DNA from: Deltaproteobacteria bacterium
Lineage (GTDB): Bacteria > Bdellovibrionota_F > JAHFAK01
Direction: 5' to 3'
Assembly (NCBI GenBank): GCA_023250585.1
Contig: JAHFAK010000030.1
Coordinates: 1-17,944 of the forward strand
DNA length: 17,944 nt
Each line of letters starts with the position of its first letter. The first letter of the stretch is position 1. Shown here one piece after another: positions 440-17,473 of this stretch. The position numbers and the translations under genes are program-made. The notes under the pieces were generated by a model that saw only the letters and a program-made list of their open reading frames with translations, ran no database searches and was not told where the DNA came from.

Positions 440-1040
440 AATCCTCAACGATTTCTACACTGCCAATAACGGGATTTACATTCAGGGTATAAATTTTTTC
501 GTTTCTATCCTGTAAATATACCATGGTTTTTTCAGTAAAACCATTAGGGAAAAAAAGACTAAATTCTTTACCTTCTTTAACTACTTTACCTGAATGCTCA
601 GTATAAACACCATGAAAAGAAATACCTATAGGCAGGCTTTCTTTACCAAAAGTATTGGATTCATCTTCAAACGGAGAAAAATTGGCACGAATGGCGATAC
701 GAGATTCTTTCTCATCTTCTTCATTATTTTCTTCTTTTTTTGTTGTTTTTTCCGTTGTGTCTGAATCTTTTTTATCTTTCTCTTCTTCTATAGGTTCTCC
801 ATATTCAATCCAATAGGTACCATTTTCTAAATCATATACAATCCTAAATACTTTGTTTTTAATGACTGACTGATTGTAGGTGTACCGAATCATTGTACCC
901 ATCTGGACACAGGCTCCTTTCATGCCGAGCCCAAAAATTGCAGTTATATTTGGAACAACAAATGTTGCAGTTATGGCAAGAATGAGAACAACTATAACGA
1001 GTTCGAGAAGAGTAAAGCCGCGAGTCTTTTTACTTATCAT
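408..1040 (-). CDS. gspH: GspH, type II secretion minor pseudopilin
   Basis: Minor pseudopilin of the T2SS tip complex, inserted in the inner membrane and processed by prepilin peptidase. The N-terminus MISKKTRG|FTLLELVIVV has the cleavage Gly, Phe at +1 and Glu at +5, followed by the hydrophobic helix (about residues 9-30). The C-terminal part is a plausible GspH beta-fold (FSLFFPNGFTEKTMVYL). Residues about 83-113 form a Lys/Glu/Asp-rich low-complexity insertion between two beta segments, which makes the protein (210 aa) longer than typical GspH. Its ATG overlaps the end of gspG by 11 bp, so the two are probably translationally coupled. Its own last 32 bp overlap the inferred gspI start. 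Order G-H-I is the standard T2SS order and supports the assignment over a generic type IV pilin. Confidence 0.85.
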   Translation of the reverse strand: MISKKTRGFTLLELVIVVLILAITATFVVPNITAIFGLGMKGACVQMGTMIRYTYNQSVIKNKVFRIVYDLENGTYWIEYGEPIEEEKDKKDSDTTEKTTKKEENNEEDEKESRIAIRANFSPFEDESNTFGKESLPIGISFHGVYTEHSGKVVKEGKEFSLFFPNGFTEKTMVYLQDRNEKIYTLNVNPVIGSVEIVEDYVDPENKDNT

Positions 1041-1479
1041 CCTTTTCTTTCCAGTTTCCTATCGTCTTTGGATTATCCTCGTCACCTTCAGTCCAAATAT
1101 CATAGGATTTTCCATGACTGCCTGGATATTCATATTGATAAGGATTATGCCATGAATCTTCGGGAACTTCTTCTTTTCCTAAAAACCCTCCTTCAGGATA
1201 TCCTTTACATTCCTTACCCGCTGTTGGTGGAGATACTAATGCCTCAAGCCCTTGCTCAGTTGATGGAAAGAATCCACAGGTCGTTTTAAAGAGTATCAAT
1301 GCACTTTCTAAATTTTTGATTTGAATACGAGCTGCATTTTCTTTAGCTTGCTTGGCTCCTCCAAGAATATTCACTCCGATAATAGCGCTCAGAATACCCA
1401 TGATGAGAACAACAATCATAATTTCAAGAAATGTAAAACCTCGATTATCGTTTAAGTTTCGTAATAATAGCTTTTTCAT
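1030..1479 (-). CDS. gspG: GspG, major pseudopilin of type II secretion
   Basis: Main subunit of the T2SS pseudopilus. The leader of 14 residues ends NRG|FTFLEIMIVVLIMGIL, with Glu at +5. The family pattern follows: an extended helix (NAARIQIKNLESAL), then FFPSTEQGLEALV, PEDSWHNPYQY, and SHGKSYDIW near the C-terminus. That last region is the calcium-binding loop of known GspG proteins. Here it is Asp/Glu rich (TEGDEDNPKTIGNW) but lacks the usual paired glycines, so calcium binding is plausible and not certain. The length of 149 aa is normal. A strong AAAGGAG lies 6 nt before the ATG. It follows gspF after 29 bp and overlaps gspH. Confidence 0.95.
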   Translation of the reverse strand: MKKLLLRNLNDNRGFTFLEIMIVVLIMGILSAIIGVNILGGAKQAKENAARIQIKNLESALILFKTTCGFFPSTEQGLEALVSPPTAGKECKGYPEGGFLGKEEVPEDSWHNPYQYEYPGSHGKSYDIWTEGDEDNPKTIGNWKEKDDK

Positions 1480-1508
1480 TACAAACTCCTTTCTTCAATA
1501 ATTATTTT

Positions 1509-2735
1509 TTACCTTCCTACTAACTGTTGCATTTTAAAGATAGGAAGTAAAATGGATATTACCACAAATCCCACAACCAAACCTAATGCTGCTATCATAA
1601 CAGGTTCGAGAAGTGACATGAGCGTTGAGATACTACGATCGACTTCACCATTATATGATTGGCTTACTTTGAGTAACATCTCTTCAAGATTACCGGTCTT
1701 TTCTCCAATTGCAATCATATGTGTGACCATCGCAGGAAATTCGCCACTTGCACGTAACGGCTGTGCAATACCCTGCCCTTCTGAGATACTTTCAGCTGTT
1801 TCTTTAATGACTCTTTGAATAACCAAATTAGAAATAATCACACGGACAATATCCATTGCAGCTAACAAAGGAACGCCTGAAGCAAGCAGGGTACCTAACG
1901 TTTCAGAAAAACGTGCAATAGAAATCATACGAATCATCTTTCCATAGACGGGTAGCTTTAATTGGAATTTGTGGAATTTATATTTTCCTTCATAGGTGCT
2001 CGTAAAACGTCTAAAAAGAAAAAGAGCGAGGAAAAACAAAATAATTAAAACAAACCAATACGATTTAAGAAAATTACTTGTTGCCATCAAAATAACAGTT
2101 GGTAAAGGCAACGCAGCTTTGATGCTTGAGAAAAGACTCGTAATTTTTGGAATAACGAATGTAAACAACGCAATAATAATACCAAAACCCATAAGAGCCA
2201 TAAGCACGGGGTATGCCAGAGCGCCCATGACTTTATTACGAAGAGCAAGTTGTTTCTCAGTGAAATCGGCAAGTTTTTGCAAAACTACATCCAGGTTCCC
2301 CGATGCCTCTCCGGCGCGAATCATATTACAATACATATCAGAAAATACCTTTGGATACAGTTTGAGTGCGTTGGCAAGCGAACTTCCTTGGTTAACTGAA
2401 TCACGAATGGAAGAAATAACTTTCTTGAGTTTAAGATTTTCAGTCTGATCAACAAGAGCGGTAAGAGATTCAACCAAAGGAATATGCGCTCCAATGAGCG
2501 TCGCTAACTGCCTCGTCATATCAGCAACGTCTTGAACACCCACTCTTTCAAAAATATCGCTTAAATGAAATTCATGAACTTTAGAAGAAGAACCATCTCC
2601 GCCCAAAGTTAAGAACGTAGGAAAAATGCCTTCTTTGCGGAGCTTTGCTTTTGCGGCAATAGGACTATCCGCATCGATTAACCCCGCGATTGCTTTTCCC
2701 TGAGTATTAATCCCTTTATATTCGAATACTGCCAT
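1509..2735 (-). CDS. gspF: GspF, inner-membrane platform protein of type II secretion
   Basis: Polytopic inner-membrane protein on which GspE acts to assemble the pseudopilus. It has two T2SSF domains (about residues 70-193 and 271-393 of 408), each with the repeated signature (AGEASGNLDVVL and IGEKTGNLEEML). Predicted membrane segments are at about 173-196, 227-243 and 376-400. The start is placed at ATG 2735 (MAVFEYKG, the usual family N-terminus); an in-frame TTG at 2741 adds two residues but has no support. There is no Shine-Dalgarno directly before either start. The nearest one, GGAGAAAGG at 2806-2814, overlaps the gspE stop and is separated from the ATG by a repeat hairpin (see 2741-2807). 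Confidence 0.93.
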   Translation of the reverse strand: MAVFEYKGINTQGKAIAGLIDADSPIAAKAKLRKEGIFPTFLTLGGDGSSSKVHEFHLSDIFERVGVQDVADMTRQLATLIGAHIPLVESLTALVDQTENLKLKKVISSIRDSVNQGSSLANALKLYPKVFSDMYCNMIRAGEASGNLDVVLQKLADFTEKQLALRNKVMGALAYPVLMALMGFGIIIALFTFVIPKITSLFSSIKAALPLPTVILMATSNFLKSYWFVLIILFFLALFLFRRFTSTYEGKYKFHKFQLKLPVYGKMIRMISIARFSETLGTLLASGVPLLAAMDIVRVIISNLVIQRVIKETAESISEGQGIAQPLRASGEFPAMVTHMIAIGEKTGNLEEMLLKVSQSYNGEVDRSISTLMSLLEPVMIAALGLVVGFVVISILLPIFKMQQLVGR

Positions 2736-2740
2736 ACGCA

Positions 2741-2807
2741 ATTAGCGGTTATCGGTTAGCGGTGTGCGGTTAGCGTTAGAGAAAAATGAAAACGCTAACC
2801 GATAACC
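2741..2807. repeat. GGTTAGCGGT-type palindromic repeat, copy 1, between gspE and gspF
   Basis: GGTTATCGGTTAGCG (2747-2761) and its exact reverse complement (2793-2807) form a perfect 15-bp stem. An alternative 11-bp stem is CGGTTAGCGTT (2767-2777) with AACGCTAACCG (2791-2801), loop 13 nt. The two stems share bases and exclude each other. The 23 bases at 2754-2776 recur with one mismatch on the minus strand at 10557-10579, so this is a dispersed family. It sits exactly between the gspF Shine-Dalgarno and start codon. Confidence 0.8.
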
Positions 2808-2814
2808 TTTCTCC
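2806..2814 (-). promoter_or_regulatory. Displaced Shine-Dalgarno of gspF
   Basis: On the minus strand GGAGAAAGG begins at the last base of the gspE stop codon (TAG, 2816-2814). It is the only good ribosome-binding sequence upstream of gspF, but the ATG at 2735 is 70 nt away. The intervening bases fold into the 15-bp stem of the repeat at 2747-2807, which could bring the two together in the mRNA. This role is inferred from position. Confidence 0.5.
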
Positions 2815-4631
2815 TATTCCTCTATTACTGAATCAACTTGCGTTGCTTTCAATACTTCTTCTATGGTCGTTACGCCTTCTGCTACTTTTAAGGCTCCATC
2901 ATCTCGCAAGGTTAACATGCCACGAGCAAGAGCTGCTTTTTTAATAGTAACTGAATCTACACTTTTCAAAATAAGACCTCGAATTTCATCATCGATGGGC
3001 AAAAATTCATAAATACCACTTCTGCCTTTATAACCAGTTCCTTGGCATTTATCGCATCCTTGCGCCTTATAGATAACTCCGCCCTTAATATATTCCTTTT
3101 TAATATTGAGAATTTTTAATTCATCATCAGTAGGAGTCACTGGTTTACGACACTCGAGGCAAACTTTACGGATAAGTCGTTGAGCAAGTACAGCGACCAA
3201 TGATGATGATACTAAGAACGGCTCTATTTCCATATCGGTCAACCGAGTTACCGCACCAAAGGAATCATTGGTGTGTAACGTACTAAAAACAAAATGTCCG
3301 GTAAGAGACGCTTGGACTGCAATTTCAGCTGTTTCACTATCTCGAATTTCTCCAATCATTATTACATCCGGGTCTTGTCGTAAGATTGATCGTAATCCAT
3401 TCGCAAAGGTAAGATCGATTTTGGGATTTATTTGAATTTGTCCAATACCCTCAAGCTGATATTCGACAGGATCTTCAACGGTAATGATATTTTTTTCGAC
3501 GCTATAAATTTTTGATAAGCATGCATAGAGTGTGGTCGTTTTTCCTGATCCTGTGGGTCCTGTAACTAAAAATATACCATGAGGTTTATAGATTACTTCC
3601 AAAATCTTCTGATAATTTTTATCAGAGAGCCCAATGGTTTTTAAATCAAGCATAACGTTACTCTTATCTAAAAGTCGCATAACGATACGTTCACCATGTG
3701 ATGTCGGAAGCGTTGACAGACGAACATCAATATCTTTTCCCGCAATTTTAATACGAATACGTCCATCTTGCGGAAGGCGCTTCTCAGCAATGTTGAGTTT
3801 TGCCATGATTTTAATTCTTGTCGCGATACTCTGCTGATATTTTTTTGGTGGCTTCATAACATCATAGAGCGCACCATCAATTCGGTAACGAACGGCTAAA
3901 TCTTTTTCAAAAGGTTCTATGTGAATATCACTTGCGCCCTCTTTAACTGCACGAAATAATATTGAGTTGACGAGACGAATAATGGGCGCTTCTTCATCAC
4001 TTTCAAGAAGATCTTGAGGTTCTTCAAAATCTAAATTATCCATATTTTCATCAAAGTCTTTCATTTCATCCTTGGTATCTTTTGCTCTATCATATATTCG
4101 ATTAATGGCTTCGATTATTTCTGTAGGCTTTGCGAGAACCAAACGAATTTCTGTTTCCAGTAAAATACGTATATCATCGATAGGAGAAAGATCATTTGGG
4201 TTTTCAATTGCGACTATAATAAAATCTTCCTCGTGCTTGATAGGAATAATCTTAAACTTCTTCGCAAAGTTAATAGGAATTTTTTTAATAAGTTCAACAT
4301 CCAAGTCAGCTGCATCTATTTTTTTCTGATAAGGAATATTATATTGATAGCTTAAAGCATTATAGATTTCATCCTCAGTCACATATTTTTTCTTAAGAAG
4401 AATTTCTCCTAATTTTTCTTTTTTACTTTGACTCTTCTGAACTTCAATTGCTTCATTAAGCTTTTCAGGAGTAATCGTTGAAGTCATGAGCAAAATGTCA
4501 CCTAAAAGCAATGACTGCTGATCCCGTGAGCTTTCTGTCTCTATAATTTTTTTAATCTTATTATTATCTATACTCGTAAGCTCATCAATGAAATCATTAA
4601 TGAGATCGCGTACACTATGTTCTCTGGCCAT
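2814..4631 (-). CDS. gspE: GspE, type II secretion ATPase
   Basis: Cytoplasmic hexameric ATPase that drives pseudopilus assembly. An N-terminal MshEN/GspE-N domain lies at about residues 55-180, followed by an acidic linker (about 185-215, rich in Asp/Glu) and the secretion ATPase core. Visible motifs are Walker A GPTGSGKTT (358-366), the Asp box around GASDIHIEP (232-240), Walker B in DPDVIMIGEIRD (420-431), and the His box SLTGHFVFSTLHT (442-454). A four-cysteine zinc site follows (Cys491, Cys494, Cys526, Cys529), typical of GspE/PilB. The length of 605 aa is slightly long because of the N-terminus. GGAG lies 7-8 nt before the ATG. The gap to gspD is 24 bp. The C/D/F/G/H context makes GspE rather than PilB. 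Confidence 0.96.
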   Translation of the reverse strand: MAREHSVRDLINDFIDELTSIDNNKIKKIIETESSRDQQSLLLGDILLMTSTITPEKLNEAIEVQKSQSKKEKLGEILLKKKYVTEDEIYNALSYQYNIPYQKKIDAADLDVELIKKIPINFAKKFKIIPIKHEEDFIIVAIENPNDLSPIDDIRILLETEIRLVLAKPTEIIEAINRIYDRAKDTKDEMKDFDENMDNLDFEEPQDLLESDEEAPIIRLVNSILFRAVKEGASDIHIEPFEKDLAVRYRIDGALYDVMKPPKKYQQSIATRIKIMAKLNIAEKRLPQDGRIRIKIAGKDIDVRLSTLPTSHGERIVMRLLDKSNVMLDLKTIGLSDKNYQKILEVIYKPHGIFLVTGPTGSGKTTTLYACLSKIYSVEKNIITVEDPVEYQLEGIGQIQINPKIDLTFANGLRSILRQDPDVIMIGEIRDSETAEIAVQASLTGHFVFSTLHTNDSFGAVTRLTDMEIEPFLVSSSLVAVLAQRLIRKVCLECRKPVTPTDDELKILNIKKEYIKGGVIYKAQGCDKCQGTGYKGRSGIYEFLPIDDEIRGLILKSVDSVTIKKAALARGMLTLRDDGALKVAEGVTTIEEVLKATQVDSVIEE

Positions 4632-4655
4632 ATTTTTCTCCGTTTATACTGAGTT

Positions 4656-7073
4656 TTACTCAAATTTTTCCCATTCGTTATCTTCATTTTTTTCTGAAGG
4701 CTGATCATTTTCTGATGGAGGTTCTTTACTTTCATCTTTAGGTCCTATTTGATCTTCAGGTTGTCGCTCCTGAGCTCGCTCTTCTGGCGTTATTATCGTG
4801 GAACGTTCTTCCCGTTTTTCTTCTGGGGTGGTTTCTGCGGGAATTTTTTCTTCGGGTGTTTCTTGTTTTACTCCTTCTTGAGTTTCTTCTTGTTTTTGTT
4901 TTACTTCACCTGAATCCTCTGTATCGCTCTTTTCATCTTTTTCTATAACGTCCTCCGGCTTTTCCTCTACAGGCGCTGGGGGTAAAGATTCTGGAAATGG
5001 TTTTGCTGGCTCAAAGTTTTCTGCTCGCTCACGTCGTGGTTTCGGTTCAGGAAGAGGAGTGAGTTTTATACCCATATCTTCGAGTTTTTTATTTTGTTCC
5101 ATTCCATGTTTTTCTAAAAAGAGTTCTCGTTGCTTTGTTTTTTCCAGGAATATTTTACCCATATCCTCCGGTGTTTCAATAATATAGGGAGTTGCAATGA
5201 GAATTAGGTTTGTCTTCTGCTTTGATTTACCGGTGTTTCTAAAAAAGAATCCCAACAGAGGAATATCCCCTAAAATTGGAACTTTCGAAACTGTTTTTGT
5301 TTCACGATCACCAATCAAACCACCAATAACAACCGATTGCCTATCTTTAACAACAACTGTTGTTTTTGCATTACGTTTCGAGGTTGATGGTCCCTGGGTT
5401 TGTATAATCGAAGGATTTTGTCCTTCTAAAAGTTCTTGAACATCTTCTTCAATTTTTAACGTCACTTCATCACGAGAGCTTACCTGTGGAGTAATACGTA
5501 AAGTAACACCGATATTTTCTCGTGTAACATTGACAATCGGGTTCATATTTGTGTCGCGAGCAGTACTTGATACAAATGGAACGCTTGATCCTACTTGAAT
5601 AACCGCCTCTTCATTATCAGTTGTTAGGATATGAGGTGTTGACAGGATATTCACATTTGAATTATTTCCAACGGCACGCAAGATTGCGCCGACAACCGGA
5701 ACTGTAATGTCAGTTCCTCCAGGAATATCAAGGGTTGCAGTATCTTTGCTAGAAAATCCAACCAATAATCCCGAACTTGTTAATGGATCATTAGGATTAA
5801 GAGCAGAATTAAATCCACCAAAGGTTGCGCCAAAGGTAGTTCCAAAATCGGTGAGTTTATTACCGATAGCTGCGTTACCAGCAAAACCTCCAACATTATA
5901 TCCACTCGATATTGCTACTTCCATAATCACTGATTCAACGAAAACCTGTTTTCGTCGCGCATCGAGTCTATTGATAATTTGACCAACAAGAATTTTATAA
6001 TCTGAAGGAGATGCAACGATAACTAAGGCATTCGTTGCAGCATCAGCGACTATTTTAATTTCTCCTTCAAAACTTACGGTACTCTCGGGGCCTCCTCGTC
6101 CACCGGATGGTCTTCCCGCTCCGGTTGTTATACTGCTTAATGTCTTTGCCATTTCGACAGCATCAGCATTTTCAAGATTGTATACATGGAAATTTCCACC
6201 AGAATCTCCACTTCCCAGCGGGATGTCGAGTTTCATGATTACTTCTTTAACCTTTTCAATTCCTGCTTTTGTTGCAAGAACAATAATGGAGTTATTTCGT
6301 TCATAAGGAATTAATTTTGAAATTGCGGAGGATTCTAAATCAGAAACTACATTGGGATCTTTGGGCGCACCTTTTCTTCCTCCTTCTGAGAGATGAAATA
6401 TATCTTCAAGTTTTTCTACAATTTCTTTGGCCGATCCATGTAGTACCTGAATAAGAGCAAATTTCTCCTGATATCCTTTGACATCCAAGTTTTCAATAAT
6501 CCGTAAAACTTTAGCAATATTTGCTTTTGAATCGGTGATAATTAACATTTGGGTGGGAGCATAGGCTGTTACCGTTCCTTCATTTGAGATTAAACCCTTC
6601 ACAATCTTGGAAATTTCATTAACATCGATATATTGTATATTAATTATTCGAGTCATATACGGATCAGCAAAAGGAGATTTACTTAAATAAGTAGGAATAG
6701 CTTCATGAACAGCATCACGCTTTTGAATAATTTTAATGATACTTCCTTCATGAACCGTTGTATATCCCGCAATATCAAGAGCTGATAAAAATGCTTGGTA
6801 AGCGGCATCTACCGGCATTCCTTTTGGACCTATAATAGTAACTTTATTTTTAACCTTACTTGAATCAAACGCAAAATTGAGCCGCATCATCTTTGATACG
6901 GTTTCAATAACATCGGTTAATTCAACATCACGGAAATCAAATGAATCTACGTAGAGTTGTTGGCCTTGCTTATAGGTTTTCCGGCCGGCCGCTTCTGGAG
7001 CAGCAATTGACTTAGTTCCTATGAATGCCATGAGCATTACTACGGTCAGTACCATTTTCGTTGTTCTTTTCAT
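4656..7073 (-). CDS. gspD: GspD, outer-membrane secretin of type II secretion, with long charged tail
   Basis: Forms the outer-membrane channel. A signal peptide occupies about residues 1-25. The N0 domain (about 38-118), N1 (138-198), N2 (205-285) and N3 (293-372) precede the secretin barrel (about 375-635), which contains NVNILSTPHILTTDNEEA and the VPILGDIPLLGFFFR signature. After about residue 675 comes a Pro/Glu/Lys-rich, probably disordered tail of about 130 residues in place of the short S-domain of classical GspD. N3 has a Gly-rich loop (GRPSGGRGG). Start: AAGGAG at 7085-7080 lies 6 nt before ATG 7073, and an adjacent ATG at 7076 is nearly as good. A GTG at 7091 would overlap the gspC stop but has its Shine-Dalgarno inside the gene, so I reject it. 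Confidence 0.95.
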   Translation of the reverse strand: MKRTTKMVLTVVMLMAFIGTKSIAAPEAAGRKTYKQGQQLYVDSFDFRDVELTDVIETVSKMMRLNFAFDSSKVKNKVTIIGPKGMPVDAAYQAFLSALDIAGYTTVHEGSIIKIIQKRDAVHEAIPTYLSKSPFADPYMTRIINIQYIDVNEISKIVKGLISNEGTVTAYAPTQMLIITDSKANIAKVLRIIENLDVKGYQEKFALIQVLHGSAKEIVEKLEDIFHLSEGGRKGAPKDPNVVSDLESSAISKLIPYERNNSIIVLATKAGIEKVKEVIMKLDIPLGSGDSGGNFHVYNLENADAVEMAKTLSSITTGAGRPSGGRGGPESTVSFEGEIKIVADAATNALVIVASPSDYKILVGQIINRLDARRKQVFVESVIMEVAISSGYNVGGFAGNAAIGNKLTDFGTTFGATFGGFNSALNPNDPLTSSGLLVGFSSKDTATLDIPGGTDITVPVVGAILRAVGNNSNVNILSTPHILTTDNEEAVIQVGSSVPFVSSTARDTNMNPIVNVTRENIGVTLRITPQVSSRDEVTLKIEEDVQELLEGQNPSIIQTQGPSTSKRNAKTTVVVKDRQSVVIGGLIGDRETKTVSKVPILGDIPLLGFFFRNTGKSKQKTNLILIATPYIIETPEDMGKIFLEKTKQRELFLEKHGMEQNKKLEDMGIKLTPLPEPKPRRERAENFEPAKPFPESLPPAPVEEKPEDVIEKDEKSDTEDSGEVKQKQEETQEGVKQETPEEKIPAETTPEEKREERSTIITPEERAQERQPEDQIGPKDESKEPPSENDQPSEKNEDNEWEKFE

Positions 7074-7087
7074 CATTATCTCCTTCT

Positions 7088-7996
7088 TCACTTTACTTCA
7101 TACCTCAACGATTCTTTTTTACCCTGTCTTTGTACATTTATGGTAAAATTCGATGCATTTCGCAAATCCTGAAAAAGTCCCAATGATGATTCAATACTAT
7201 CGAGATTTTTTCCATTGACCTGTTCAATGACATCACCATTTTTAAGTCCAAGTTCTCTGAAAATACTTTTATAGCGAATAGAAAGAATTTTAAATCCCTG
7301 CATTTGTCCTTGCACCATATAAGGAACCGCTCGTGCTTCACGTAAAATGTTGTTAATATCCGACAAAGATGCTTCAAGTTTTTCACGTGCAATCTCAAAT
7401 TCGTTCTCGCTCTTTTTATAAATTCCGTCCTCAACATTTCCTACTCCACCTTTTGATCCGGTGGAACTTTTTGAAGCCATATCTTCTTCTGACTGGAGTC
7501 CTTCAACTTCAAGATATTCTACATATCCACCTCTATTAATCAAAACCTTATTGCGCTGAATATCAACAATCACTCCATCTTCTAGTCTATCGTTCAAACT
7601 ATATTGGTCCGTCTGATTTTGATAAAAAATTGTCGCGATTGAATACTCGGGGATACTCATAATAACCGTACCCAAAAGCTTCGCTGCTATTTTGCTGCGA
7701 ACAACATTTTTATTTGCCTCATCGACTATCACTTGTTCTAAACTCTTTTGGGTATTTTTAGAATCAAAAATGTTCCGGTCACTAATAGTTTCGTATACTT
7801 TTTTATCTAATGACTTTTTGATGACCCTTTCATTCTTAATCCTCTCTAATTGGCCATTGTCTATTTTCTCGCCAGATATATACAACTGTGCTCCTACAAC
7901 ATTCATAATAATATTAGCTAACATGAGCCCTATAATTCCTAATGCAAATAAATTAATCGCCCAATTGTATTTCTTTAAATACAGTTCAATATTCAT
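7088..7996 (-). CDS. gspC: GspC, inner-membrane/periplasmic linker of type II secretion
   Basis: Bitopic protein linking the inner-membrane platform to the secretin. A short cytoplasmic N-terminus precedes a membrane helix at about residues 13-35. The homology region that contacts GspD N0 follows at about 65-165 (KIAAKLLGTVIMSIPEYSIATIF). Then come a Ser/Gly-rich linker, a probable helical segment (about 200-222), and a C-terminal PDZ domain (about 225-302, with LGLKNGDVIEQVNGKNLDS). The length of 302 aa is normal. It is the first gene of the operon: a strong promoter lies about 60 bp upstream and a hairpin closes the preceding gene. No strong Shine-Dalgarno is visible before the ATG. Confidence 0.93.
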   Translation of the reverse strand: MNIELYLKKYNWAINLFALGIIGLMLANIIMNVVGAQLYISGEKIDNGQLERIKNERVIKKSLDKKVYETISDRNIFDSKNTQKSLEQVIVDEANKNVVRSKIAAKLLGTVIMSIPEYSIATIFYQNQTDQYSLNDRLEDGVIVDIQRNKVLINRGGYVEYLEVEGLQSEEDMASKSSTGSKGGVGNVEDGIYKKSENEFEIAREKLEASLSDINNILREARAVPYMVQGQMQGFKILSIRYKSIFRELGLKNGDVIEQVNGKNLDSIESSLGLFQDLRNASNFTINVQRQGKKESLRYEVK

Positions 7997-8732: not shown

Positions 8733-10490
8733 TTACTTATCTTTTTCTTTTTGCTCAAAAAAATTTGTTACTGCTTCATAGGAAGCTTTACTAACTTCAA
8801 GAACGATCCCTTCATCAGCTCTATACACAAAAGCTTTATCCATTTCAACTTTTCCAAAATGCACCTGAACGTCTTCATTATTTTTTCCTTTAATATGAAG
8901 TGTAAATCCCTTATCAAATTCATAGGGTTTTAAATCAGTATTAAAGCTAAATTTAGTTACTTTCAGATTATCAATAGCCTCGAGAAATTCAACTGCAGCC
9001 TTACTGTCTTTCTCAATCAGTTTATCGTTGCTATATTTTTGCCACGTATCGTTTGTATTTTGCACATAGCGAATCTTTTTTTCTGGTATACTCATCTCGG
9101 TTATATTCCATCGAGGAATGGTAACCAATTTTTCCTCACGCACATTTTCAACAGAAACCGCAAAAAGCTTGTCTTTATCCTCTTTTTTAATCGTATATAT
9201 AAACGGATCGTTATATTTTTTTACATAAAATTCTTTGGCTTGAGCATTTTCTCTGCCAATCATAAAACCAAATGTATTATTTTCGCTATCCTCGATATCA
9301 ACGCTCATAATTGGCTTTGTGAAACCATAGGTAGATTCTTTCTTAAGATCAGCATGAATGGATTCAATTCTCATGATTTCAATTGTCTTGAGTGTATTTA
9401 AAAAATTATTGAAGATCGTCTGGTCAGTTATAAATTTAACTGGCGTCGTTCCATACCATTTTAGAGCTTCATGAGAAAAAATTATTTGGCGATCTTTGGT
9501 AAAGATAAGTTTTTTTAAGTCCCTACTTTCGAAGTTTACTAATTTTTTATCAACTAAATCAGCGAGGGTTTTGTTCAATGTATTAAAATCTGATTCATCA
9601 AGAGAAACAAGAACATCGTTCTGAGAAGAGTGGAAATAAAAACTCTTTTCGCCTTTGGTATTTTTATTGAATGCAATACTAAACGTAATAGTTTCTTTGG
9701 TCTTAAGATCAAAACTCATCGTAATAGCTGGCTTCTGTAATCCATATTTTTTTAGATCATCGGGATCAGCTTTTTCAGTGATAAAAGATTGAGCATGAAG
9801 CTCTACAATAGCCGAGAGAAGCGCAGCAACTCCATCCCCTAAACTATGCACAATTGGTTCAGTGAGTATCCATTTCTTTTTATCTTCATCAAAAGAAGCC
9901 TTATAATGTCCATGTTCATTCTGTAAGGTAAAGCCGCGAATATCATCTGCTTTAAGATTGTGAAAAACGCTTTTTTCTCTCAATTCACTTAAATCTTTTG
10001 TTTTAATATCATCGAGATTTGTCTCCACAAGATACAGCGCCGGATCACTATCCTTTTTTAAATACGAAGCTGTTTTATCCGGACTTTTTGAACCGAGGAC
10101 AAAATTAAATTGTTTATTATCATTGGTATGAAAGGAAATAGTAGTCGCTTCAACACCGAGTCCAAACGTGTCGCCATTAACTTGGATATCTTTAATGGTC
10201 TTCTTAATTTGTAACATCACAATATCTTCACTTAAATTTTTTAGTACGGTATTATTAGCTTCAGTATTAATGGGTTCTAAAATTTTCCACGTTGAATCGG
10301 GAGACTTTTTAAAATCAAATTTTCCTTTTTGATTTTTTAATTCAATCTCAGTGATCGCATCTGCACCAAAGGTATACATCTTTTTTGCCTCTTCTTCATG
10401 TGTCTCTCGATTTTCTTTTCTCTGAAGAGATTTATGGGCAAGAAAGAAAAGTATTAAAAAGATGCCTAATACAATTAACGTTCGTTTCAT
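8733..10490 (-). CDS. DUF4340 protein with four tandem repeat units, membrane anchored
   Basis: An N-terminal hydrophobic helix (about residues 3-19) anchors it, with the rest probably periplasmic. The body is four copies of one unit at about 45-170, 182-316, 324-450 and 460-578. Each begins with a strand of the type ITEIELKN, GFTLQN or LKKLIFT. A W-containing strand follows (WKILEPI, WILTEPI, WYGTTP, WQKY), then a helix, then (in units 1-3) a YG/FG-containing turn (TFGLGV, KYGLQKP, TYGFTKP), and finally a strand with the pattern of FVLGSKSPDKTASYL. This matches DUF4340 (found beside Gld-like ABC genes). AAGGA lies 8 nt before the ATG. The gene is last in the ABC operon, separated from its neighbour by a repeat hairpin. 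Its biochemical role is unknown; position suggests it works with the transporter. Confidence 0.85.
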   Translation of the reverse strand: MKRTLIVLGIFLILFFLAHKSLQRKENRETHEEEAKKMYTFGADAITEIELKNQKGKFDFKKSPDSTWKILEPINTEANNTVLKNLSEDIVMLQIKKTIKDIQVNGDTFGLGVEATTISFHTNDNKQFNFVLGSKSPDKTASYLKKDSDPALYLVETNLDDIKTKDLSELREKSVFHNLKADDIRGFTLQNEHGHYKASFDEDKKKWILTEPIVHSLGDGVAALLSAIVELHAQSFITEKADPDDLKKYGLQKPAITMSFDLKTKETITFSIAFNKNTKGEKSFYFHSSQNDVLVSLDESDFNTLNKTLADLVDKKLVNFESRDLKKLIFTKDRQIIFSHEALKWYGTTPVKFITDQTIFNNFLNTLKTIEIMRIESIHADLKKESTYGFTKPIMSVDIEDSENNTFGFMIGRENAQAKEFYVKKYNDPFIYTIKKEDKDKLFAVSVENVREEKLVTIPRWNITEMSIPEKKIRYVQNTNDTWQKYSNDKLIEKDSKAAVEFLEAIDNLKVTKFSFNTDLKPYEFDKGFTLHIKGKNNEDVQVHFGKVEMDKAFVYRADEGIVLEVSKASYEAVTNFFEQKEKDK

Positions 10491-10508
10491 TATAAAATCC
10501 TTATTTTC

Positions 10509-10579
10509 GGTTAGTGGTTTTCGGTTTGCAGTTAACGCTTTTAGAACTTTTTTCAGACGCTAACCGCTCACCGCTAACC
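10509..10579. repeat. GGTTAGCGGT-type palindromic repeat, copy 2
   Basis: GGTTAGTGGT (10509-10518) faces ACCGCTAACC (10570-10579), with imperfect pairing between. The minus strand of 10557-10579 matches 2754-2776 at 22 of 23 bases, and the bases after it remain similar (an A-rich stretch ending in GCG). It fills the gap between the GldG-like gene and the DUF4340 gene but ends before the DUF4340 ribosome-binding site, so that site is intact. Confidence 0.75.
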
Positions 10580-10582
10580 ACT

Positions 10583-12175
10583 TTATCGACGTTTCCTCCA
10601 ATACCATACTAAAAGTCCAAAAAGGAGAATAAGTTGAGGTATGGCAAGCACACATAAATAAAATACAAAGCTTGCTTCCTGAGGTGCCCAATTAATGCGA
10701 GATGATTTAATCATCTTAGGACGAACAGAAATTTTTTCAACTTCTCCATTGAGCCAATTAAGACAGTTCAAAAAGAGATTATGATTGGAAGCTCCACCTA
10801 ATCGCTGATTTGAAATAAATGATGCATTTCCTATAACAACGACTTTGGAATTTTTAGCTGCTCCCACATTTTTCATCGATGTCATAAGTACTGAAAACGG
10901 AGCGCCCGTATCATTAGAATCTTTTTTAGCATTACCTTGAAAAATTGAATTAAAGTTCTTTTCACCCCAATACACCGGACCATCGACTTTTATAATTGAT
11001 TCAACCGTAGGAGCCGTGGCAGCCGTAATCTTTGTTAATGGCCGTGTAAATTGAAGAACAACCTTACCATTAAAATCTTTTGTTATTTCGTGTTGCTCAT
11101 ATGAGGCGATATGTACTTCCGGTCTTACTTGTGAGCCAAACATCGCACGCAAAAACTCAGGAATTTCCGGCGCAAACATAATGACTTCACTTCCAAGTCC
11201 GATTCCATATTCACTAAGTATGCCTTCAAAACCCGTTTCAATGAGTTTTGTTTTTGCTACATCAAAAATAGGTTCAAGCATGAAAAAGGCATTTCCGCCT
11301 CCGTCGAGATAGCTTTTTATTTTTGCAATTTCATCAGTACTGAAATTATTCTTAGGCCCGACAACAATTAAGAGAGCTGCATCGGCAGGGACTTTTGCTT
11401 CTTTGCCTAAATCAACATTTTTTGAAGTGTATCCTTCATTTTCAATATACTTTGCAATGATGTTGTATCCAGTCGCTTCTTCATTCTTAATATCACCTTC
11501 TCCATGACCAGTAGTAAAATAAATAAAGGTGTCCGCACCTTTTGTGATTTGAATAAGCCCATTTGTGATATTCTGTTCATCGAGACCTTGGAGAATATTC
11601 TTTTTACCGCTGTGTCCTACAATAACTGCCATGCCATTTGAAACTTCAAGTTCTTTAGCACGTCCTGGGTTCTCATCAGCATCGAACAATTCTAATTTTA
11701 TTTTATCTGAGTAATAGCGATAGCGATCAACGATATCTTTCAGTACTATACGTCCCTGGACACCAACATTGTAAAAACCGATTACGGTTATTTCTTCTTT
11801 AAGATTTTTTGTAATATTAATGGATTGAGACTCAAGTGAAAATACTTTATCCGCAGTCAAATCAATTTTTGCATTGAACGTCGGTTCAGTAACAAAAATA
11901 ACATTTGCAAAAACAAGAATTCCAAAGAGCAAAAAAACATAAATAAATGCATTCGTGCCCCGTAATGTTGAACGCTCTTTCATGGAACTTTTTAGAGAGC
12001 CGCTATTAAAAACAAGATAAAGAACAAGGAAGACGACCCCCACAATTGAATTAATAATGGGGTAAAGAGATAGTGATGCTCCTTTACCTTGGAGTAAATC
12101 GAGTACAAAACTCAATATACCAAAAATAATAGAAACTATACCAATGATACCAAAATATCGAGACGCTGCCCGCAT
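10583..12175 (-). CDS. GldG-like ABC transporter auxiliary protein
   Basis: Membrane protein of the GldG / ABC-type uncharacterised auxiliary family. There are three predicted membrane helices at the N-terminus (about residues 7-27, 38-56, 76-96). A large extracytoplasmic domain then starts with the family motif DLTADKVFSLESQS (105-118) and contains YFTTGHGEGDI (219-229) and EIAKIKSYLDGGGNAFFMLEP. A last helix at about 503-525 is followed by a basic cytoplasmic end. The length of 530 aa is normal. GGAGG lies in the end of the permease gene 7 nt before the ATG, and the genes are 4 bp apart, so they are co-translated. In gliding Bacteroidetes the GldAFG set supports motility; outside that group the substrate is unknown and no motility gene is seen here. 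Confidence 0.88.
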   Translation of the reverse strand: MRAASRYFGIIGIVSIIFGILSFVLDLLQGKGASLSLYPIINSIVGVVFLVLYLVFNSGSLKSSMKERSTLRGTNAFIYVFLLFGILVFANVIFVTEPTFNAKIDLTADKVFSLESQSINITKNLKEEITVIGFYNVGVQGRIVLKDIVDRYRYYSDKIKLELFDADENPGRAKELEVSNGMAVIVGHSGKKNILQGLDEQNITNGLIQITKGADTFIYFTTGHGEGDIKNEEATGYNIIAKYIENEGYTSKNVDLGKEAKVPADAALLIVVGPKNNFSTDEIAKIKSYLDGGGNAFFMLEPIFDVAKTKLIETGFEGILSEYGIGLGSEVIMFAPEIPEFLRAMFGSQVRPEVHIASYEQHEITKDFNGKVVLQFTRPLTKITAATAPTVESIIKVDGPVYWGEKNFNSIFQGNAKKDSNDTGAPFSVLMTSMKNVGAAKNSKVVVIGNASFISNQRLGGASNHNLFLNCLNWLNGEVEKISVRPKMIKSSRINWAPQEASFVFYLCVLAIPQLILLFGLLVWYWRKRR

Positions 12176-12179
12176 AGGT

Positions 12180-12986
12180 TTACCTCCATTTAGAAGATTC
12201 TAAAGATGTCTTGGTTAAAAAGATAAAGAAGACAATAATGCTTACAAAATATAATGTATCGTTTAGATCGAGTGTGCCTTTAGCAAAGTTTGCAAAATGA
12301 CCCGTAATTGAGAGATATCCCAAGACACTTCCAATTGCTCCACTCGTAAGCTGACTTGCCCATCCAATAATTAAGAGCAATAAACCAATGGCAAAAGAAA
12401 TGAAGTACGCATTGATTTGATTGGATGTAAGGCTCGACGTAAAAAGCCCAATTGATAAAAGCAATGTTGCTACAAATATAAGTCCAATATAACCAGAAAC
12501 CAAAGGACCGAGTTCAGGATTACCAAAGTAAAACAAAATGCACATAAATAATGCTGTAAGACTTAATGCTAAAAGGATAAAGAAAAATGATCCGAAGAAC
12601 TTTCCGAGTACAATATTAAATGTTGAAATGGGTGATGTCATAAGCAGTTCATCGGTTTTTTGTTTTTTCTCTTCAGCAATAAGTCGCATCGAAAGTGCTG
12701 GAACAACAAATATCAAAACAATAATTAAAAATTGCAAAAATGGTGCAATGACACGTTCATTTAAATTCAATCGTTCGAGTAATGCTGGATTTCTATAGAG
12801 CTGAGCATACATTTGATACTGATTAATCATTGCAAAGAAATTTGAAAGGAGCATATAGAAGTAAATACCACTTATAACGGTGATGACACATAAAACAGAG
12901 TATGCAATGGGAGAAACAAAATAACCTTTAAGCTCTTTATTAACAATAGCACAACTACTTTTCATACTTAGTATACAATTACGCAT
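12180..12986 (-). CDS. ABC-2 type permease, GldF-like
   Basis: Inner-membrane permease with about six hydrophobic segments (about residues 28-48, 80-102, 126-153, 160-182, 190-212, 242-260). The cytoplasmic coupling motif RLIAEEKKQKTDELLMTSPI (101-120) is characteristic of the ABC-2/GldF group. The length of 268 aa is normal. GGAGG lies 6 nt before the ATG at 12986, which overlaps the ATPase stop by 8 bp. That supports this start over an internal Met (residue 8, MKSSCAIV). It would form the channel for the ATPase upstream. Confidence 0.9.
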   Translation of the reverse strand: MRNCILSMKSSCAIVNKELKGYFVSPIAYSVLCVITVISGIYFYMLLSNFFAMINQYQMYAQLYRNPALLERLNLNERVIAPFLQFLIIVLIFVVPALSMRLIAEEKKQKTDELLMTSPISTFNIVLGKFFGSFFFILLALSLTALFMCILFYFGNPELGPLVSGYIGLIFVATLLLSIGLFTSSLTSNQINAYFISFAIGLLLLIIGWASQLTSGAIGSVLGYLSITGHFANFAKGTLDLNDTLYFVSIIVFFIFLTKTSLESSKWR

Positions 12987-13707
12987 GCAGCACCTCCGTT
13001 TCCCCTTTGGTAACTAAATCCAGGAAGGCGTCTTCCAAGGTTTTTCCTTTAGTCAGTGTTTCGAGCGATTCTTTCGCAATAACTTTTCCTCTATTAATAA
13101 CTACAGCTCGTTGGCATGTCATCGTTACTTCAGGCAATATATGCGTCGATAAAATAATTGAATGCGACCCGGAGAGTTCTTTAATTAAATTTCTAATTTC
13201 GCTGATCTGTCGCGGATCAAGCCCGGCAGTTGGTTCATCTAAAATGAGAACCTTCGGATCATGAATAATTGCCTGAGCAATTCCCACTCGCTGACGAAAA
13301 CCTTTTGATAGATTGCCAATAATACGCGTGGAAACTTCCTTCAGGCTGCATTTTTCTATAGTCCACTCGAGTCGTTCTTTGCGTTTGGATCGTGGTATAC
13401 CTTTTATTTTTGATACAAAAGAAAGATATGAATGCACGGTCATATCGAGATAGAGCGGAGGGAGTTCAGGCAAATAGCCAATGCGCTTTCGAACTTCCAT
13501 GGGATCTTTCATAATATCAAATCCTGCTACGTGAACTTTACCAGATGTGGCGGGAATATAGCCCGTCAAAATCCGCATAGTTGTCGTTTTACCAGCGCCA
13601 TTTGGGCCGAGAAATCCCAGGATTTCTCCTTCTTTGAGTTCAAATGAAACATCATCGATCGCCCATAAGTCACCAAAACGTTTGCGTAAGTTTTCCACAC
13701 TAATCAT
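12979..13707 (-). CDS. ABC transporter ATP-binding protein, GldA-like
   Basis: Cytoplasmic ATPase of the exporter. Walker A is GPNGAGKTT (34-42). The Q-loop region is IGYLPE, with Glu in the place usually held by Gln, as is common in this group. The signature is LSKGFRQRVG (133-142), Walker B VLILDEP (153-159), and the switch His is His189 (ILSTHIL). The C-terminal LEDAFLDLV is the usual end of the family. The length is 242 aa. AGGAG lies 6-7 nt before the ATG. It is the first gene of the operon ATPase-permease-GldG-DUF4340, with a promoter at 13755-13783. Confidence 0.93.
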   Translation of the reverse strand: MISVENLRKRFGDLWAIDDVSFELKEGEILGFLGPNGAGKTTTMRILTGYIPATSGKVHVAGFDIMKDPMEVRKRIGYLPELPPLYLDMTVHSYLSFVSKIKGIPRSKRKERLEWTIEKCSLKEVSTRIIGNLSKGFRQRVGIAQAIIHDPKVLILDEPTAGLDPRQISEIRNLIKELSGSHSIILSTHILPEVTMTCQRAVVINRGKVIAKESLETLTKGKTLEDAFLDLVTKGETEVLHA

Positions 13708-13956: not shown

Positions 13957-16842
13957 TTAAAATGCCGCGAAGGCTTCGACAAATATTTTATAATCATCTG
14001 TTGCAGCAAATTGATTAATAGGAAAAACACTCCCTACGCGTACATTGAATTCTACATCAAAAAATGTTCGATTTAAGATTTCAATAAAAGGTCCATAGGC
14101 TCCATGAATTTCAGAGCTACCAAAATCATTGTCCCATAAATAGCCAGCACGAGCAAGGACGCCAATACTGAGACCTTCAAAAGCAACGCTGTTTAAAAAC
14201 GAAAGTGAATCTTCAAAAATTCCAAAGTAGCGCGTTCTTCGTGTACGCAGAAGTGGATGCGAAAATTCAACGCTTCCGAGAAATCTTCGTAGGCTTGGCG
14301 TAACATCATCAAAAAGATAGAGCTCATCTAAATCAAATTTATAAAATTGAATGTTGTGCTCGGTATTGTACCCAGCTTCAAGAAAGCCATATGAGTTTAT
14401 GTAACTGGTGAGCTTTGCTAATTTTGAAGTTCGAAGTGTAAAGCGCGCCAATTGATTATTAATAGGAGATATAAGTTCAGGTGAATACAGTGCTTCAAAT
14501 TCATTAATGAGTCCTAAGCTCACTATATCATTTCGCGTGTAATTAAATCGCACATATTCTATAACGTCTGGCAGCTCATCTTTAGTATTGTCTCCTATCA
14601 CCGTATCTACGGAGAGCTCTTTAAAGTGGTTAAATCCCAAGGCAAGACGAAAATGATTTGCATCTATATCAGTAAATCGAGTAAGACCCAATTTATTTTT
14701 TTCAAAAAGCGTAAAGCTATATCCCAATTCATTTATCAAAAAGAATTCCTGTACAGAATCGGTTGAGAGTACTTGGTTTAATGTTATATCACAAAATTGT
14801 CCTCTACCAAGATGATAGGCAAAGCGTTCGATGAAATATACAAAATCGCCGGTGTAGTTTGCTAGAAATGTCCAGTAATGATCGTCGAGAAAATGACCAT
14901 TGATGCGAATGCCATATCCGCCAAAAATATAGGGAGAGAAATTTATATTGTAACCATCCAAAGGATATTCGAATAACAGACTATATTTTATTGGCTTGCG
15001 TGGATAATAATTATTCTCACGGCTAAAGTCTGGAAGATCTTGATTAGGATCGAGTTCCACGCTCACGATTTTTTTATCGCTTTCAATAACAATAGAAAAT
15101 GATTCTTTTTCGTTATCAATAAATAAAAGCTTTGTAGTTTTATCTTCGTATTCTATCTTCAAAGTAAATGGGAGATATGCCTTTCCATAACGATTAATCA
15201 TGATTTCATTTCGTATAATTGGCCCAAAAAAAGTTTTCTTTATAGGTGAAGATTGCAGACTCACAACTTCATAATCGAGATGATGATTATGATAGAACCA
15301 ATCCGAAAAAAATTGCGAAACATCTTTATAGGTACTTTCTTGCACAATTTTTTCAAACTCATGCGTTGTAATAAAATCAGTATTTTTATCGTGGTAGAGT
15401 TTTCTGAGAAGTTCATTAAACTCCTCTTTTCCTACATATGCTGCAAGGGATTTTAGAATAAGATACGATTTGATATACGTTCTTACATAATCAAAATTGG
15501 TGCGGTCATAGGGGAAATGTGTTTCTTTATGAATCGGCTGATCAATGCCATCGAGCACAAATCTTCGATAGTTAAGAAAGTAACTTTCCTCGATAGTTTT
15601 TGGGAAATAATAAGAAAGAGGATCAAAGGCTTGCACGAGATACATAAAAATAAAAAAGATCGAATGCGTTTCAAAAAAATTATCAGCCTTGCCGTATGTT
15701 TTTTCCAGATACGAAATCGAAGAATATTCAGCTAATCCTTCAGCAATCCAATCGTCGGAATAAAAATCATTGGAAACAGCTATGCCCCAATACAGATGGG
15801 CAACCTCATGAGCAACAATGTATTCAAACACACGATCCTTGAGGCCAGGACTCATCATGTCTTTAAAGAAAAAAGTTTCAGCTATGTAAATGAGCCCATC
15901 AGCAGCAAAAAATACTTCTTCACCATAATGAATGGTAAAGGTAATAAATCCATGCGGTAATGGTCCAAATGTTTCAGCATAGTGAGATATAATTTTCCCA
16001 ACTTTTTTAAATAAAAATTCTGCATCATCGTCGTGGTTGCCATGAAGAATCCATGGACTCTTTTGAGGCCCATATACATTGACTATGAGATCACCGATTT
16101 TTTTTGTATATCTCTTAAATTTATTTGAAAATGAAAGCGGAATTGTTCTGACTGGAATTTTTGATTCACTTGCGTAGAGATGTTTCCCATCCACTATTTC
16201 TTCGTAAAATTGATCTCCAATCTGTGCAAGAATATATGATTCAGGAAACGTGATTTTTAATTGATACGTAAAAGCATTAAATAGAAACCCTTCAGTAGCT
16301 TTTCCATCAACAATAGGTAATTCCTGGGGAAACCAACCAAAACGGGCAGTGTAAACATCTTGATAGTAACCAAGATCAGATTTTTTTTCGGCAAGTTTTG
16401 TTTTAAATTCAATCCGAATGGTATATCGCTCATGTGGTTCTAACGGCTCTTTTAACATTACATCAAGAACTGCTTCTTTGGTAGAATACTTCTGAAGAAA
16501 TTCAAAACCCTTGTGTATTTTAAATGGAAGTTTTTCATTATTGCTGGTGGACACACGCGAGATCTCCGTAAATGTTGACTCAAACCCATATCTATATGAA
16601 ACATCCTGAACAATTTTTGCAACACTCTCATTTGCTTCTTTCTCAAGATTTGCAAGCAACATAAGCGAAATGATCGAGATGCTTTCTTTTTGTGCATTAT
16701 AATAGTCGAGAATTAATGTGCCCGAAATGCTATGAGTATCAGGATCAAATGCCGCTTCAATCCGATAATGCGAAACTTCCTGTGCATTCGCTAAAGCAAA
16801 CAGCCCGAAGAAAAAAATAGAGATAAAGAAGAATCTCTTCAT
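13957..16842 (-). CDS. Exported M1-type metallopeptidase with C-terminal outer-membrane beta-barrel
   Basis: A signal peptide (MKRFFFISIFFFGLFALANA, cleaved near residue 20) is followed by an M1-like N-terminal beta domain (about 25-250). The catalytic domain carries HEVAH (345-349) and Glu368, exactly HEXXH-18-E, inside EGLAEY; His345, His349 and Glu368 should bind zinc and Glu346 catalyse. A canonical GAMEN exopeptidase motif is absent; the equivalent region reads FFAADGLIYI (311-320). After a further beta domain (about 525-605), residues about 615-961 are alternating polar/hydrophobic strands with Gly and aromatic residues, ending in Phe (FVEAFAAF). This looks like an outer-membrane barrel of Omp85/surface-antigen size. 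Plain M1 enzymes lack this part. Substrate unknown. It is a single gene with its own promoter, and no Shine-Dalgarno is seen. Confidence 0.85.
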   Translation of the reverse strand: MKRFFFISIFFFGLFALANAQEVSHYRIEAAFDPDTHSISGTLILDYYNAQKESISIISLMLLANLEKEANESVAKIVQDVSYRYGFESTFTEISRVSTSNNEKLPFKIHKGFEFLQKYSTKEAVLDVMLKEPLEPHERYTIRIEFKTKLAEKKSDLGYYQDVYTARFGWFPQELPIVDGKATEGFLFNAFTYQLKITFPESYILAQIGDQFYEEIVDGKHLYASESKIPVRTIPLSFSNKFKRYTKKIGDLIVNVYGPQKSPWILHGNHDDDAEFLFKKVGKIISHYAETFGPLPHGFITFTIHYGEEVFFAADGLIYIAETFFFKDMMSPGLKDRVFEYIVAHEVAHLYWGIAVSNDFYSDDWIAEGLAEYSSISYLEKTYGKADNFFETHSIFFIFMYLVQAFDPLSYYFPKTIEESYFLNYRRFVLDGIDQPIHKETHFPYDRTNFDYVRTYIKSYLILKSLAAYVGKEEFNELLRKLYHDKNTDFITTHEFEKIVQESTYKDVSQFFSDWFYHNHHLDYEVVSLQSSPIKKTFFGPIIRNEIMINRYGKAYLPFTLKIEYEDKTTKLLFIDNEKESFSIVIESDKKIVSVELDPNQDLPDFSRENNYYPRKPIKYSLLFEYPLDGYNINFSPYIFGGYGIRINGHFLDDHYWTFLANYTGDFVYFIERFAYHLGRGQFCDITLNQVLSTDSVQEFFLINELGYSFTLFEKNKLGLTRFTDIDANHFRLALGFNHFKELSVDTVIGDNTKDELPDVIEYVRFNYTRNDIVSLGLINEFEALYSPELISPINNQLARFTLRTSKLAKLTSYINSYGFLEAGYNTEHNIQFYKFDLDELYLFDDVTPSLRRFLGSVEFSHPLLRTRRTRYFGIFEDSLSFLNSVAFEGLSIGVLARAGYLWDNDFGSSEIHGAYGPFIEILNRTFFDVEFNVRVGSVFPINQFAATDDYKIFVEAFAAF

Positions 16843-16985: not shown

Positions 16986-17210
16986 ATGCCAAGAACTACC
17001 TTTGCAGTTAAGCTTGATGTAAAACTTCAGAAGACAGTTAAAGAATTTTGTGAGATTCATGGTTTTAAACAAGGCTCTTTTATTGAAAAGGCAATTCGTG
17101 AACAGATAGACCGAGAAGAACTTGCTCACGATCTTCTTGATCTCTATACCTTACGTTCAACTGAAACTCTTGCCATAAGTCTTGATGATTATCTTAAAGG
17201 ACGAAAATGA
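16986..17210 (+). CDS. RelB/ribbon-helix-helix type antitoxin
   Basis: Protein of 74 aa. The N-terminal strand TTFAVKLDVKL and the two helices after it (LQKTVKEFCEIHG, KQGSFIEKAIREQIDRE) fit a ribbon-helix-helix DNA-binding domain of the CopG/RelB type. The C-terminal part (about 48-74) ends LAISLDDYLKGRK, as in antitoxins that wrap around a RelE-type toxin. Its stop overlaps the toxin ATG by 4 bp (ATGA), so translation is coupled. It probably neutralises the toxin and represses its own promoter. It is recognised mainly by context and architecture; the family name within the ribbon-helix-helix group is not certain. Confidence 0.8.
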   Translation: MPRTTFAVKLDVKLQKTVKEFCEIHGFKQGSFIEKAIREQIDREELAHDLLDLYTLRSTETLAISLDDYLKGRK

Positions 17211-17473
17211 AATCGTCTTATATAATTTTTATTATTCCTAAAGCTCAAAAAGATCTCAATTCTCTTGAAAAAAAGGATTTTCCAAAAATTCAAAAAGTTA
17301 TCGAAACTCTAGCTGAAAATCCACGCCCTTATGGCTCATTAAAATTAAGCGGCGAAGAAGGATACAGAATTCGCGTTGGAACATTGAGGATTCTCTATCG
17401 TATTGATGATAACGCTAAAAAAATTTTTATTTATCGAGTACAACATCGGAAAAATGTCTATAAAAATCTTTAG
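17207..17473 (+). CDS. RelE/ParE superfamily toxin
   Basis: Protein of 88 aa with the whole RelE/ParE fold: a first strand YIIFIIPKAQKDLNSL, two helices, then SLKLSGEEGYRIRVGTLRILYRI split around the central strands, and the closing IYRVQHRKNVYKNL. Arg and Lys residues of the YRIRVG, RILYRI and HRKNVY blocks correspond to the basic surface that contacts ribosome-bound mRNA in RelE enzymes. RelE-type members cleave mRNA in the ribosome, while ParE-type members act on gyrase. The HRKxVY ending favours the RelE group, but I cannot settle the target. It is intact and follows its antitoxin with a 4-bp overlap. It converges on the peroxiredoxin gene with only 29 bp between. Confidence 0.88.
   Translation: MKSSYIIFIIPKAQKDLNSLEKKDFPKIQKVIETLAENPRPYGSLKLSGEEGYRIRVGTLRILYRIDDNAKKIFIYRVQHRKNVYKNL

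Follow-up and report, generated by a model that had tools for sequence, protein, structure and literature searches.

Whereas Omp85 proteins are known as insertion or transport machines for other proteins, the patatin-like Omp85 protein PlpD is reportedly the first clear sign that an Omp85 barrel can serve instead as the membrane anchor of an enzyme. In PlpD and FplA (type Vd), one exported chain carries a phospholipase (patatin) at its N-terminus and a 16-strand Omp85 barrel at its C-terminus; PlpD also has one POTRA domain. Here we describe P0001, a protein of the same layout in which the enzyme is an M1 zinc peptidase rather than a phospholipase, most likely facing the periplasm as in PlpD and FplA, and whose family has no recognisable POTRA domain. 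An Omp85 'Metallo' subfamily, in which the barrel is combined with an N-terminal metalloprotease domain given as PF00149, has been reported previously (Heinz and Lithgow 2014, PMC4104836). P0001 has no match to PF00149. The latter we take to be the calcineurin-like phosphoesterase family and not an M1 peptidase. No earlier account of an M1 peptidase or aminopeptidase fused to an Omp85 protein or a barrel was found in the open-access literature, and the M1-barrel family is apparently undescribed so far; it would be a second, unrelated case, after PlpD, of an enzyme carried on an Omp85 barrel. We consider it likely that P0001 is an M1-fold zinc metallopeptidase anchored on the periplasmic side of the outer membrane through its own 16-strand Omp85-fold barrel; it is probably not a standard aminopeptidase, and its role is most likely housekeeping proteolysis.

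The window (the whole stretch of DNA analysed, 17,944 nucleotides) encodes P0001 on its minus strand, a strand left unstated in the first-pass annotation, in a reading frame that opens with ATG and contains no internal stops. The features of the gene are summarized in Table 1. A chance or frame artefact was rejected, given the single open frame and its conservation in 45 relatives. Three alignments were used. A1 is a divergent 13-row alignment that includes M1 proteins outside the P0001 family; A2, narrower than A1 and used as a search profile, comprises P0001 and eight proteins with a layout like that of L004, an 870 aa protein similar to P0001 in length and layout; and A3 comprises P0001 and 45 full-length or near-full-length relatives chosen from the 65 loci found with A2. 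A full-length AlphaFold2 model of P0001 was built on A3, and residues 605-961 were also modelled separately. For structure comparisons by VIA-align, the yardstick was the best Z of 7-8 obtained for models without a clear match.

Table 1. Position and supporting evidence of the features of P0001 within the window.
Feature	Residues	Position	Strand	Evidence
Whole gene; exported M1 peptidase with C-terminal Omp85-type barrel (predicted)	1-961	13957..16842	-	ORF, Pfam, model
Signal peptide (MKRFFFISIFFFGLFALANA), AxA-type cleavage before Q21 (putative)	1-20	16783..16842	-	read from translation
M1 N-terminal beta domain	24-260	16063..16773	-	model strands; full-model match to IRAP/ERAP over ~620 columns
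M1 catalytic domain	270-517	15292..16035	-	PF01433 at 316-515, E = 1.4e-14; model
Altered GXMEN site (FAADG), Glu position = Ala313	312-316	15895..15909	-	profile alignment to solved M1 structures
HEVAH zinc motif	345-349	15796..15810	-	translation
Glu368, third zinc ligand	368	15739..15741	-	invariant, 46/46
Tyr456, equivalent of M1 catalytic Tyr (Y-x-KG motif)	456	15475..15477	-	invariant, 46/46; aligned with Y-x-KG of solved M1 enzymes
Third M1 domain, beta-sandwich-like	522-597	15052..15279	-	model
Junction, DP-x5-D-x2-R-x-NN-x2-P then PLDAY	598-629	14956..15051	-	A3 conservation; model
16-strand barrel of Omp85 fold, C-terminal Phe (predicted)	630-961	13960..14955	-	models; Foldseek; VIA-align

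The first-pass annotation had read P0001 as an exported M1 metallopeptidase fused to an Omp85-type barrel, and this architecture is borne out by Pfam, both models, Foldseek and VIA-align, with the layout shared by the 45 relatives. The N-terminal sequence (MKRFFFISIFFFGLFALANA-Q) looks like a typical Sec signal peptide, in keeping with the proposed export, and residues 2-18 form a helix in the model. The Peptidase_M1 match scores 54.6 bits against a curated cut-off of 27.7; the only other Pfam signal is a sub-threshold M1 N-terminal domain, so that the Pfam matches are to M1 models only and no patatin domain was found in P0001. NCBIfam and PDB sequence searches likewise point to M1. The full-length model (mean pLDDT 82.9, pTM 0.85) places the M1 domains up to residue 597 and matches IRAP/ERAP in Foldseek with E = 3.3e-23. 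Where Omp85 proteins have their POTRA domains the model has the third M1 domain, and a barrel stands in P0001 where many M1 enzymes have a C-terminal helical domain.

Direct searches with P0001 matched proteins of other genomes mostly in the M1 part, at 22-30% identity, while a single-protein scan of genome contigs with P0001 gave no matches. The A2 profile search retrieved 65 loci in named genomes, mostly Bipolaricaulota/Acetothermia and Thermotogota; single records are labelled Atribacteria, Caldisericota, Neomarinimicrobiota, Fraserbacteria and Spirochaetia, labels that may be wrong where they come from metagenome-assembled genomes. L004 is matched in 22 of 103 genomes of its own phylum, and A2 loci from named genomes, such as Marinitoga lauensis, point to Thermotogota as that phylum. 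One relative (L069) covers residues 21-944 of P0001 at 27% identity. All 46 A3 proteins have the same layout, in which the M1 part is followed by ~300-360 further residues, and all 46 match Pfam Peptidase_M1 (E up to 0.1). On the evidence of the models and these relatives, the M1-Omp85 fusion of P0001 is real and recurrent. In a tree of M1 sequences the P0001 family forms one group with support of 100/100; the place of P0001 inside it is uncertain (80/52), its end branch of 1.6 marking a divergent member. Some Bipolaricaulota genomes hold two copies of the M1-barrel protein (L071 and L080; L074 and L076), one pair being on the same contig. The family spans Bipolaricaulota, Thermotogota and other deep-branching diderm lineages, partly in a housekeeping gene order, and would show how little-studied envelopes carry out outer-membrane proteolysis. 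Proteins visible to sequence search only as M1 peptidases would gain a membrane location, and since members occur in Marinitoga, proteins of culturable organisms are open to tests.

The housekeeping setting is that of Bipolaricaulota, where nearly all of the ~28 loci with a corC-like (CorC/CNNM) gene directly upstream and of the ~25 with pheT directly downstream are found. This gene order may not speak for the divergent P0001, which has its own neighbours and stands apart in the window. An ABC transporter set starts 249 bases after the gene, and a toxin-antitoxin-like pair and a Bcp-type peroxiredoxin gene lie before it. None of the flanking genes recurs beside relatives elsewhere, except for weak ABC ATPase matches. 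The pair (16986-17473, plus strand) consists of two short overlapping reading frames (74 and 88 aa), whose translations look like a ribbon-helix-helix antitoxin and a toxin of the RelE/ParE type. By Pfam, the ABC transporter genes (8733-13707, minus strand) form a Gld-like set of a DUF4340 protein, an ABC_transp_aux (GldG-like) protein, an ABC-2 permease and an ABC ATPase. Further along, the translations of a cluster at 408-7996 on the minus strand read as type II secretion genes (gspH/G/F/E/D/C-like).

The C-terminal part of P0001 is, as modelled, a 16-strand barrel of the Omp85 fold. Structure prediction had been proposed as a check on the first reading, and the full-length model shows 16 consecutive strands at 630-960; the barrel-only model again has 16 (pLDDT 81.2, pTM 0.78). 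Within the barrel, the connection at 868-882 has pLDDT < 50. The barrel proper, at ~330 residues ending in Phe, agrees with the earlier estimate of roughly 345 residues with a terminal Phe. The closest solved structures are Omp85 proteins: top Foldseek matches of the barrel-only model were Omp85 proteins only (Sam50 7btw, 3.4e-7; TamA 8us2, 5.6e-7; BamA 9hg5, 1.2e-6), and VIA-align gave Z 20.6 for F. johnsoniae BamA (9n2f), Z 20.2 for D. radiodurans BamA, and Z 20.3 for E. coli TamA (4n74; rmsd 3.4 over 275 residues). With two models and two structure comparisons in agreement, a soluble beta-sandwich in place of the barrel was rejected. Less can be drawn from the alternating strand pattern on which the first-pass annotation had relied. 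The alternation is significant (family mean z 6.5), but soluble strands give a similar value (z 5.0), and the pattern by itself fails to tell barrel from soluble strands.

The profile search proposed at the same time, against the Omp85/surface-antigen family PF01103, matched none of the 46 members, P0001 among them (E up to 0.1). Likewise, no member has a Pfam match to POTRA (0/46, P0001 included), and the loop-6 (V/I/L)RG(F/Y) motif is found in none of the 46 barrels. The family therefore shares the 16-strand barrel fold of BamA, TamA and Sam50 (Z ~19-20), and differs from them in lacking POTRA domains, the loop-6 RG[YF] and a PF01103 match, and in carrying an enzyme. A profile of the barrel gives a weak signal to more classical barrels joined to M1 domains (probability 5.9%; single-comparison E = 0.0065), and therefore Omp85 kinship rests on the fold.

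With the loop-6 motif missing throughout, the lumen may be less obstructed than that of BamA, and the junction on which the M1 domain would dock is conserved. Both observations are consistent with a gated uptake of peptides, in which the barrel would let peptides in and the M1 domain beneath its mouth would cut them, coupling import to digestion. We regard this as rather unlikely, the Bipolaricaulota neighbours being corC-like genes and pheT, not peptide transporters. We would give similarly little chance to the barrel acting as an active conduit, with peptides or unfolded proteins passing through or along it to be cut by the M1 domain at the periplasmic mouth; if true, no characterised Omp85 protein would resemble this device, in which a single chain both translocates and digests at the outer membrane.

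The side of the membrane on which the enzyme lies can be approached from the topology of the modelled barrel. In Omp85 proteins the domain preceding strand 1 is periplasmic. Because the number of strands is even, both ends of the barrel lie on one side, and an enzyme placed before strand 1 would therefore be periplasmic in the usual Omp85 topology. The connections in the model are longer on the side opposite the enzyme (78 residues versus 44), with the longest at the position of loop 6. The junction is short and conserved, has no long helix able to thread the pore, and includes six positions (D598, P599, D605, R608, N611 and P614) that are invariant in 46/46 sequences. Based on the model and on analogy with PlpD, the M1 domain most likely sits on the periplasmic side of the outer membrane. 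An outer membrane with a BAM machine is itself very likely in the host, because its genome (2.24 Mb, 97% complete) encodes, on contigs C154 and C49, two Omp85 proteins that carry the [LV]RG[YF] motif and, by reading, POTRA-like repeats.

The first-pass annotation had instead suggested a surface-tethered or self-translocating protease, drawing on the patatin-like phospholipases as precedent. In such a type V-like secretion the barrel would export its own M1 domain; a signal peptide, an enzyme and a C-terminal barrel do make up the general type V layout, and the protein-exporting Omp85 relatives FhaC and CdiB match the P0001 barrel (Z 18.7 and 18.5). However, classical autotransporters (type Va) have 12 strands and an alpha-helical pore linker, whereas the model of P0001 has 16 strands and no linker helix; its junction is tightly conserved and not a flexible linker; and export would require a large folded zinc enzyme to be unfolded without ATP. 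The precedent itself argues the other way, since the patatin domain of PlpD proved to be exclusively periplasmic (Hanson et al. 2024, PMC11116518). Taken with the even strand number and the loop asymmetry, these points leave the surface claim unsupported, and we think self-export quite improbable and surface display of the M1 domain unlikely. A periplasmic location had been named as an outcome that would count against the first reading; judged from the model and the PlpD analogy, it probably applies to the surface claim and not to the architecture.

The zinc site described by the first-pass annotation (HEVAH and Glu368) is intact in P0001 and in 46/46 members. H345, E346 and H349 are followed after exactly 18 residues by E368, completing HExxHx18E, and these four residues and Y456 are invariant in the A3 columns (46/46). 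P0001 shares this signature, the catalytic Tyr and the order of the soluble domains with M1 aminopeptidases (IRAP, ERAP2, PepN, tricorn factor F3), and differs from them at GXMEN, where the family has a sequence of the type [FM]-[TA]-A-[DENP]-G. In the profile alignment with solved M1 enzymes the FGMTADG-type sequence of the family falls on GAMENWG, and the column of the GXMEN Glu holds Thr in 30 sequences, Ala in 15 and Gly in one, with Glu in 0/46; the M1 proteins of A1 outside the family keep GME. The role of this Glu in characterised M1 enzymes is to bind the substrate's free amine; with it missing from the whole family, the proteins are unlikely to act as standard aminopeptidases, and the objection to ordinary aminopeptidase specificity raised earlier for P0001 thus extends to a family trait. 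Judging from these sequences, the family is probably not made up of standard aminopeptidases and may act as an endopeptidase or oligopeptidase; the loss of the Glu could alternatively mean weak or no activity. A catalytically dead M1 domain, carried on an outer-membrane barrel for binding or as a scaffold, would fit the loss of this Glu in 46/46 members and the existence of inactive M1-like domains, apparently including one in the host genome (L135), but is highly improbable, as decay would not leave zinc ligands, catalytic Glu and Tyr invariant in all 46.

For the reading that we favour, a peptidase anchored to the outer membrane on its inner side, the P0001 chain would cross the inner membrane via Sec, and its barrel would be inserted by BAM, the host genome having a BamA-like protein. 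Folded in the periplasm and held against the barrel via the conserved junction, the M1 domain would cleave peptides or unfolded proteins there. The most likely role would be housekeeping outer-membrane proteolysis, as turnover or quality control of envelope proteins or as trimming of peptides near the membrane.

A second group of four proteins (L020, L022, L026 and L027; ~980-1050 aa) shares the order of M1 part then barrel with P0001, and differs in keeping GXME and in having a more classical Omp85 barrel, with a PF01103 match in L022 (E = 3e-8) and an [LM]RGY motif in three of the four. In the M1 tree these proteins form a clade apart from the P0001 family, adjoining barrel-less M1 proteins (100/98), because of which M1 domains and Omp85-type barrels may have been joined twice, or once with later loss. 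The barrel-less relatives L003, L005-L008, L010 and L014 also have the DP...NN motif, and their short hydrophobic C-terminal stretch may be a membrane anchor or what is left of a barrel. Further M1-type sequences occur in the host genome (G000), among them at least one fragment of a second M1 protein. L135 (contig C70, 1-2304) is a membrane protein that combines N-terminal helices with a C-terminal M1-like domain, resembling permease/M1 fusions; its zinc motif is degenerate, reading REIAF (AREIAF) in place of HExxH, and its sequence includes a masked stretch. L002 (contig C18, 1459-1977), at a contig end, holds the first part of this second protein, which is of exported M1 type and shares 28% identity with residues 2-173 of P0001.
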